Assembly: GCA_905479495.1 (NCBI GenBank) | Contig: CAJQMR010000002.1 | Coordinates: 434,001-498,000, forward strand | DNA: 64,000 nucleotides | Source of the DNA: an uncultured Anaerolineae bacterium | Lineage (GTDB): Bacteria; Chloroflexota; Anaerolineae; Promineifilales; Promineifilaceae | Direction of reading: 5' to 3' | Translations under genes and position numbers: made by a program | Part shown: piece by piece, positions 45,344 to 46,682 of the stretch | Position numbering within the stretch: position 1 is the first letter of the stretch | How the letters are laid out: each line of letters opens with the position of its first letter | Notes under the pieces: model-generated | Databases searched by the model: none | What the model was told of the DNA's origin: nothing | What the model saw: the letters and a program-made list of their open reading frames with translations, nothing else

Positions 45344-45568
45344 GTATAACAGCTTTTATTACAATCTAGCTGACTATCTTTTTTTATTGTGTAGGCAGGC
45401 CGCAAATTTTCCGTAAATGATCGGTGAAGGTGAATATGGTAAGCATTCTGTAAGCCTCTTTTAAGCTATGTGGCGTAGACTTGGTTAGTAATTGGTAAAC
45501 GGCAGGTCAGTAAACAGTGAAAAGTGGACTGGATTCGGATTACTGAAAACTGCTCTGGAGGTCAACAG

Positions 45569-46198
45569 ATGGGACAAAAACAGATATGGTGGGGAACGGC
45601 CGTTTTTCTTATACTGCTGCTTGTGGTGGCCTGTACCGCCCCAGCTGGCGAGGAGCCAGCCAGCAGCACAACTGCGCCGCCCACTACTATAACGACAATG
45701 GCAGAGGAAAAAGAGGAGATTGTGGTGGACTTACCCGACATGGGCGGAGCGCCCGAATTTCTGAATGACGTCTGGCTCAATAGCGATGGTCCGGTAACGC
45801 TGGCCGCCCAGCGGGGCAAGGTGGTGCTGTTGGAGTTCTGGACCTTTGGTTGAATTAATTGTCAACGGACGATTCCTTGGGTCAAGGAATGGCAAGCACA
45901 GTACGAAGGCGACGACTTTACCGTTATCAGTATTCATTATCCAGAATTTGCTTACGAACGTGAGGTGGATAATGTGCGGGATGCCCTGGCGCGATTCGAA
46001 ATCACCTACCCGGTAGCCATCGACAATGACCGGCAAACCTGGCGGGCTTACAATCAGCGCTATTGGCCGACAACATATTTAATTGATAAGAACGGCCGTA
46101 TCCGTTACCAGCACATTGGTGAATTTAGCCGTGGCTCCGATTTGGAAGCCGTGGCCGCCATCGAAACGCTGATGGCCGAACCCGATCCGGTTGAATAG
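45569..46198 (+). CDS. Thioredoxin-like lipoprotein with in-frame TGA, probable selenoprotein (U-x-x-C)
   Basis: 209 residues if TGA at 45851-45853 is read as selenocysteine (residue 95). The start is the ATG at 45569 with GGAGG seven nt upstream. A lipobox signal (LLLVVAC) and a short T/A-rich linker precede a thioredoxin fold. The redox motif region reads VVLLEFWTFG-U-INC-QRTIPWVKEW; family members have FWT[FY]xCINC, so the TGA replaces the nucleophilic Cys and the resolving Cys98 is kept. The frame then runs without interruption through VISIHYPEFAYE, RYWPTTYLIDKNGRIRYQHIGEFSRG (cis-Pro site and strands) to TAG at 46196. Other genes here end normally in TGA, so the code is standard. A nonsense mutation is the alternative; its exact position makes this less likely. 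Confidence 0.75.
45872..45890 (+). promoter_or_regulatory. Candidate bacterial SECIS element
   Basis: ATTCCTTG (45872-45879), loop GGT, CAAGGAAT (45883-45890): an 8-bp perfect stem within the coding region. Its apical loop begins 26 nt after the TGA. Known bacterial SECIS elements have a short apical loop starting with G, often GGU, about 16-37 nt after UGA. Confidence 0.6.
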
Positions 46199-46254: not shown

Positions 46255-46284
46255 GGGCGCAGCCAAATGCTGCGCCCTTTTTAT
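46255..46284 (+). terminator. Intrinsic terminator of the probable selenoprotein gene
   Basis: GGGCGCAGC (46255-46263), loop CAAAT, GCTGCGCCC (46269-46277), then TTTTTATT. It lies 57 nt after the stop at 46198, which marks the end of a transcript that includes the region after the TGA. Confidence 0.85.
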
Positions 46285-46334: not shown

Positions 46335-46682
46335 ATGAACCTATTTCGCTCCAAAGCGACGCCCGATGCTGCGGGCTACTTCACCACCGTTTCTGCCGAA
46401 GCTGTGCAGGCAGACCAGATGACGGCCGTTACCATTAACGGCCACAAAATTATTCTCACCAGCTGGGATGGCCAGCTGTATGCTTTCTCCGCTGAATGCC
46501 CCCACGCCTCATCCGACTTTGCCAAAGGCTGGCTCAGCCGCTACAAAGTGACCTGTTCCGACCACGAATATTGCTGGGACATTCGCAACGGCCGTATCCT
46601 CTGGCCTGAAGACGAAACCTATCGCCTCAAAAAATACCCCGTCAAAGTGGAAGCAGGCATTGTGAAGGTGAAGCTTGAGTGA
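46335..46682 (+). CDS. Rieske-type [2Fe-2S] ferredoxin
   Basis: 115 residues from MNLFRSKATPD. The cluster ligands are C-P-H in LYAFSAECPHASSDF and C-S-D-H in YKVTCSDHEYCWDIRNGR, the C-x-H...C-x2-H Rieske pattern; the spacing of about 17 residues is normal for the soluble NirD/bphA3-like ferredoxins. No signal peptide, so it is cytoplasmic. It donates electrons to an oxygenase or reductase not seen here. Its stop overlaps the TTG start of the next gene, so the two are translationally coupled, which is odd because that product is secreted. Confidence 0.9.
   Translation: MNLFRSKATPDAAGYFTTVSAEAVQADQMTAVTINGHKIILTSWDGQLYAFSAECPHASSDFAKGWLSRYKVTCSDHEYCWDIRNGRILWPEDETYRLKKYPVKVEAGIVKVKLE

Follow-up and report, generated by a model that had tools for sequence, protein, structure and literature searches.

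ResA and TlpA are extracytoplasmic thiol-disulfide oxidoreductases with a CxxC active site, and DipZ of M. tuberculosis, which carries its own CcdA-like membrane domain, has a CINC active site in its C-terminal domain. Selenoproteins with related domains have been catalogued: in the available parts of a 2026 review 119 selenoprotein families and subfamilies are counted, and its catalogue includes the entries Redoxin (PF08534, UxxC), Prx-like (PF00578, UxxC) and cd02966 (UxxC) (PMC13188914). As sources of the redoxin entry (HEU0032618.1) it names the GOS paper and a survey from 2016, and in these parts of the review the entry is not tied to Chloroflexota, Rokuibacteriota or DipZ-like lipoproteins. 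The main text of the review does not mention Chloroflexota or Chloroflexi, the available passages of a 2022 review and of the GOS paper likewise do not mention Chloroflexi, and neither "Chloroflex" nor "redoxin" occurs as the start of a word in the accessible portions of the 2016 survey or the deep-Sep paper. According to excerpts of two reports, formate dehydrogenases with selenocysteine (Sec) are known in Anaerolineales and other Chloroflexi (PMC4959059, PMC5736913). Judging by the titles and abstract starts of the papers listed, the literature on selenoproteins in Chloroflexi, Anaerolineae or Rokubacteria or on DipZ does not describe the group reported here.

A redoxin-like gene with one in-frame TGA

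The gene is located at 45569-46198 on the forward strand of the window, which is the whole stretch of DNA analysed (64 kb), and is predicted to encode a Sec-containing lipoprotein of the redoxin/TlpA type with 209 residues. Its 209-codon frame starts with ATG, ends with TAG (46196-46198) and is interrupted solely by a TGA at 45851-45853, which is the predicted Sec codon (residue 95) according to the homologue column and the hairpin comparison described below. A GGAGG recognised by eye 7 nt before the ATG (45557-45561) is the likely ribosome-binding site. Every coordinate of this frame agrees with the original prediction. The translation around the TGA reads ...LLEFWTFG-U-INCQRTIPWVKEW... and contains the motif WTFG-U-INC with the active site U95-I-N-C98 (U-x-x-C), in which Cys98 is encoded by TGT at 45860-45862. 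The predicted signal peptide (45569-45634) has the lipobox-like end VVA-C22, assigned by eye. Lipoproteins have a hydrophobic signal that ends in a lipobox Cys; the gene product is therefore predicted to be a lipoprotein, and at least 90% of the 22 homologues in the alignment retain Cys22. Beyond the full-length gene, at 46255-46277 of the same strand, the terminator scan identified an intrinsic-terminator-like stem-loop of nine pairs, eight of which are G-C, with a T tail, and no site from the TGA through the end of the gene. A terminator had been predicted to follow the full-length gene and not the TGA; this placement holds, but the region has no more sites of this kind than expected by chance (2 versus 1.9).

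With Cys in place of Sec the protein matches the Pfam models Redoxin (PF08534; 54.5 bits, cut-off 26.6, E 1.4e-14) and AhpC-TSA (PF00578; 52.6 bits, cut-off 26). The fold was assigned by sequence homology to solved chains, the nearest being the thioredoxin domain of DipZ (5cyy/2hyx, E about 1e-51). Further solved relatives are SOQ1, NHLRC2, an uncharacterised protein, YkuV, a DsbE-like protein and ResA; TlpA matches weakly. The homology to the C-terminal domain of DipZ covers profile positions 46-209, and WP before the YLID strand is common to both. However, the solved DipZ domain is longer, with 352-360 residues, and contains Cys, whereas the window protein is a stand-alone lipoprotein with predicted Sec, and its Pfam matches contain no membrane domain, so that it lacks the fused CcdA-like domain of DipZ proper. 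The ResA/TlpA domain is also homologous, but here the window protein stays far below the cut-off of NCBIfam NF002854 (69 versus 170 bits). Scores with the NCBIfam selenoprotein models NF041054 (WAxxUGC) and NF040769 (SelL-related) were 15.9 of 300 and 19.8 of 120, respectively, NF047660 (HUIPC) gave no match to the window protein at E up to 0.1, and no NCBIfam model was above cut-off for the four proteins tried. T92, residue 95 and P167 are invariant in the alignment of 22 homologues; P167 is aligned with the Pro of DipZ and is, by sequence alone, a candidate for the cis-proline.

The codon at column 95 and the frame beyond it

The TGA had been predicted to take the place of the first Cys of the active site, with the second Cys kept, and the homologues bear this out. 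Column 95 is TGA in 81, TGC in 55 and TGT in 27 of 163 distinct homologous loci, and no other codon was found; within codons -30 to +90 of these loci (both sets) an in-frame TGA is present at column 95 only. The first set comprises 142 distinct of 167 matching loci (61 TGA, 54 TGC, 27 TGT), its Cys copies reach down to 36% identity and come from many phyla, and Cys98 is kept in all 142. Another 21 distinct loci, 20 with TGA and one with TGC, came from a further set, drawn from the class to which a Rokuibacteriota genome belongs; 57 of the 95 genomes of this set match, and 64 of the 69 listed matches hold one TGA, with the codon read in 25 of the 69. TGA copies were found in Chloroflexota (Anaerolineae) and in Rokuibacteriota. 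Closer to the window, some match is present in 93 of 98 genomes of the relatives' set (own genome included), and the 24 best loci of this set (L021-L044) have TGA in 15 (own genome included) and TGC or TGT in nine. TGC stands in this column in each of the three remaining genomes of the window's genus, so that Sec is not essential to the protein. Among 396 genomes drawn from the class of the window's genome, 77 gave a match at E 1e-36.

The frame downstream of the TGA has not decayed in the relatives. Over codons +1 to +85 past the TGA, dN/dS was 0.00-0.18 in 10 of 12 chosen TGA-TGA pairs; the remaining two pairs both involve the window copy and are saturated for synonymous change, as are all three pairings between the window copy and its Cys relatives. 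The codons past the TGA are under purifying selection, which argues that the downstream part is kept as protein. A quick tree of the 142 proteins, made with column 95 removed and with many weak forks, places the Sec copies in the Chloroflexota part and in a starred clade of seven in Rokuibacteriota. The best tree requires a minimum of 18 Sec/Cys changes, only four of them forced by starred branches, and leaves the direction of these changes unsettled.

Two public protein searches (best 120 of 420 and best 120 of 158 matches) yielded 221 different proteins. Among the 221 listed, 129 cover the column, all with Cys, and 92 begin past it. Ninety of these 92 stubs come solely from the search with the part after the TGA as query, and the stub ratio is not a frequency because the size window of this C-terminal query favours stubs. 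One stub (P0132) matches the TGA copy L025 and starts about 25 residues past its TGA; two others (P0074 and P0088) start directly past the column (MNC...). We infer that the remaining stubs derive from TGA genes. Public gene catalogues thus likely record members of the group as truncated stubs, a sign that automated gene calling ends these genes too early.

Several other matches were observed. P0017 and P0018, the latter named Chloroflexota, have two tandem redoxin domains with Cys in the active-site motifs. Redoxin matches with 30-39% identity and one in-frame TGA each were found at G083:C34:13268-13624 and G002:C435:12169-12594 and on G061:C6 and G062:C494. Second, more distant matches with one TGA inside frames of about 500-720 residues (G423, G431, G436, G437, G459-G461, G464, G494) are perhaps another Sec-containing relative of the same fold. 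Viral contigs gave eight pattern matches and no relative of the redoxin protein.

The hairpin downstream of the TGA

The bSECIS model, as given in the available parts of the review, has a loop of 3-9 nt that lies 16-37 nt past the UGA and carries a G in the first two positions, a stem of 4-16 bp and an energy of -7.5 kcal/mol or lower (PMC13188914). We searched with our own simple implementation of this geometry, which accepts uninterrupted stems only. In the window, a perfect 8-bp hairpin, ATTCCTTG-GGT-CAAGGAAT, was found at 45872-45890 (forward strand), with the loop GGT at 45880-45882, 26 nt past the TGA as had been predicted. The prediction that this is a hairpin as in bacterial SECIS elements stands for its geometry and for its association with TGA copies and, with a restriction, for its energy: the bare stem has -6.9 kcal/mol, and the limit is reached only if the outer pairs are counted (-10.1 kcal/mol, 27 nt). 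The window copy thereby belongs to the 12 TGA copies (of 81) in which the stem alone does not reach -7.5. Folding of 60 nt of the window is ordinary when compared with shuffles, of which 23 in 200 fold as well (z -1.14), and single-sequence folding was accordingly rejected as proof of a SECIS element. It is the comparative evidence and not the single hairpin that carries the case.

A hairpin at -7.5 kcal/mol or lower is present in 69 of 81 TGA copies versus 2 of 82 Cys copies, taking both sets together. The counts are 54 of 61 versus 2 of 81 in the first set and 15 of 20 versus 0 of 1 in the further set, where the best hairpin of four of the 20 TGA copies lies outside the usual spacing, all four above -7.5. 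For the first set, the energies of TGA and Cys copies differ with a Mann-Whitney p of 1.5e-24, which is not corrected for relatedness and is inflated because the TGA copies share ancestry. The relatedness-corrected test contained four supported pairs, too few for a significant result, with on average 3.4 in favour and 0 against the association (median p 0.25). In this simple version of a SECIS search, the hairpin follows the TGA copies and not the Cys copies.

The loop starts 24-26 nt past the TGA in 60 of 61 copies and at 18 nt in one (L037). In this TGA copy, from genome G033, another perfect 8-bp hairpin has taken the place of the usual one. Covariation was counted in the 53 TGA copies that share one hairpin register. 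Pair 1 is CG in 40 and GC in eight (four GG, one AT), pair 2 is TA in 45 and GC in three (five unpaired), pair 3 is CG in 41 and TA in seven (four TG, one unpaired), and pair 6 is TA in 47 and CG in two (four unpaired); at seven of the eight positions one to six copies are unpaired. A register with a 4-nt loop occurs in eight copies, seven from Rokuibacteriota and L186 from the window's own class. Only two of the 29 Cys copies within the Sec-bearing Chloroflexota clade reach -7.5, L032 and L023, the latter through a different hairpin with a 9-nt loop. L032 (genome G018, TGT) retains an 8-bp hairpin with one G-U pair. This hairpin is likely a fossil SECIS, and L032 is perhaps a recent Sec-to-Cys change.

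Sec machinery, alternative readings and proposed function

The assembly that contains the window has 7.28 Mb in 52 contigs and is 95% complete and 7% contaminated. The complete set of sel genes that the original prediction would need was found in it: a tRNA-Sec (67.4 bits, cut-off 47; identified by ARAGORN as tRNA-SeC with anticodon tca), SelA (477 bits), SelB (345 bits, with the winged-helix domains SelB-wing_2 and SelB-wing_3) and SelD (377 bits). These genes are located on contigs C1, C9 and C16 and the window on C2, so that contamination is possible in principle. The SelD locus of this genome (L018:1480-2523; G000:C16:331251-332186) has an in-frame TGA of its own in CAGUASK, and therefore this SelD is probably also a selenoprotein. 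In the relatives' set, which includes the window's genome, 84 of 98 genomes have SelA (83 of them with a score over the cut-off), so that SelA is expected in the window's genome. For the 24 best loci, SelA was found in 13 of 15 TGA genomes and in 9 of 9 Cys genomes; a loss of SelA therefore does not explain the Cys forms. The two TGA genomes that lack a SelA match, G028 (85% complete) and G039 (78% complete), may do so because they are incomplete. All seven Rokuibacteriota genomes have a SelA match, one of them (G417) a fragment only.

Altogether, the reading as a selenoprotein is strongly supported, and we hold with high confidence that the UGA at 45851-45853 is decoded as Sec. A TGA by itself is an ordinary stop, and the gene could be a pseudogene, contain a sequencing error or give a short product next to a C-terminal piece with its own start; the public proteins that begin past the column, including the one that matches L025, would fit such a reading. 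However, these stubs split the U-x-x-C motif or omit it. Moreover, the TGA recurs in this column in 80 further distinct loci and was found nowhere else in the codons compared in the 163 loci, the codons beyond it are under purifying selection, and the TGA copies on four single-contig genomes (G278, G336, G381 and G407; loci L160, L165, L141 and L167) argue against an assembly error; a real stop is therefore highly improbable. Read-through of another kind, by a reassigned code, by a near-cognate tRNA or with Cys inserted at the UGA, is just as hard to credit: the column would tolerate Cys and nothing specific speaks for such a reading, but TGA does not serve as a general sense codon, as it stands in the core at column 95 only, the genome has tRNA-SeC, SelA, SelB and SelD, and the hairpin accompanies TGA and not Cys codons. 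The hairpin itself could be a by-product of protein constraint on the codons of IPWVKE/IPSLRE and not a recoding signal. Synonymous shuffles leave some room for this, since they are beaten by 37 of 61 TGA copies at p 0.05 and by five at 0.01, with p = 0.076 for the window hairpin. Yet the Cys copies of related sequence in the Sec-bearing Chloroflexota clade rarely reach the energy limit, in one of the two cases by a different hairpin, and the paired changes affect different codons (TGG GTC versus TCG GTG), so that we give this explanation very little weight.

For the Sec reading, we propose that SelB and tRNA-Sec read the UGA, guided by the hairpin (45872-45890) past it, and that the product would be an extracytoplasmic lipoprotein of 209 residues with a U-x-x-C active site. 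It would be located outside the membrane, anchored through a lipidated Cys22, with Sec95 as the attacking nucleophile and Cys98 as the resolving residue. The lipoprotein might reduce disulfides in the envelope and be re-reduced by a CcdA-type membrane carrier; one DsbD_TM-domain protein is encoded in the genome. This protein and a cytochrome c assembly protein adjoin a separate Cys-type redoxin (WATWCGPC), and the Sec lipoprotein would be an additional envelope thiol oxidoreductase. Selenium may offer a faster nucleophile and better recovery from over-oxidation. The Cys relatives may have arisen from Sec forms by a one-base change followed by loss of the hairpin, a direction that the tree does not settle.

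A role as disulfide reductase seems reasonably likely to us. A selenoprotein acting as a peroxidase is the alternative, because T92-F-G-U95 has the TxxU spacing of Sec peroxiredoxins; TxxU is given as the peroxiredoxin motif in the table of the review as available (PMC13188914). The invariance of T92 and residue 95 and the matches to the Redoxin and AhpC-TSA models fit this, but thiol-disulfide exchange is favoured by the conserved U-x-x-C pair and by the solved chains that are most closely related (DipZ, YkuV and ResA), and we regard a peroxidase as unlikely.

The original prediction of a U-x-x-C redox lipoprotein from a possibly undescribed selenoprotein group in Chloroflexota is upheld in its Sec and U-x-x-C part. 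The limitation to Chloroflexota is too narrow because Rokuibacteriota have TGA copies too, and "undescribed" is partly too strong because UxxC selenoproteins of the redoxin/TlpA type are already catalogued as broad categories. The UxxC redoxin family with HEU0032618.1 (PMC13188914) has the same Pfam domain and motif; it was compared by its table entry only and may overlap with the group. Prx-like 3 of the GOS paper, in the passages available, matches pfam08534 only at E above 0.001, in contrast to 1.4e-14 for the window protein. The Prx-like thiol:disulfide oxidoreductases (PF00578, UxxC/UxxU) and the thiol-disulfide isomerase-like selenoproteins (cd02966, UxxC), both compared by their table descriptions only, share the thioredoxin-like fold in which Sec replaces the first Cys. 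We thus regard the group as a probable new subgroup among the catalogued UxxC selenoproteins of the redoxin/TlpA type. Its breadth, the stubs in public databases and the recurrent switching between Sec and Cys in genomes with SelA look new. We think it fairly probable that it forms a distinct, unnamed W-T-[FY]-G-U-x-N-C subfamily of DipZ-type stand-alone redox lipoproteins that is widespread in Anaerolineae and the Rokuibacteriota class, with many Sec/Cys exchanges in genomes keeping the Sec machinery, at least one fossil SECIS (L032) and C-terminal stubs in public records. Broadly distributed and well supported, the group enlarges the known selenoproteome of two bacterial lineages that are mostly uncultured. 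Since close relatives differ by one codon base (TGA versus TGC/TGT) with SelA kept, it is also a natural experiment on the reasons for which selenium is retained or given up in a bacterial envelope redox enzyme, and on the rate at which a SECIS element then decays.

The neighbouring genes were counted in the 142 loci, many of which have short flanks. A gene for a Rieske [2Fe-2S] protein follows on the same strand (46335-46682 in the window) in 11 of the 142 loci (four TGA, seven Cys), all from the window's own family, and the Rieske protein is a possible redox partner. The other neighbours vary (MurJ, diacylglycerol kinase, LysM and PKD proteins), and a conserved operon was set aside as a weak clue to function. 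The palindrome ACGGCCGT, which we take to resemble the HIP1 repeats of cyanobacteria, occurs 120 times in the window versus about 1 expected (the largest number in 100 shuffles was 4), that is about once per 530 bases, for example at 45596, 46092, 46422 and 46588.
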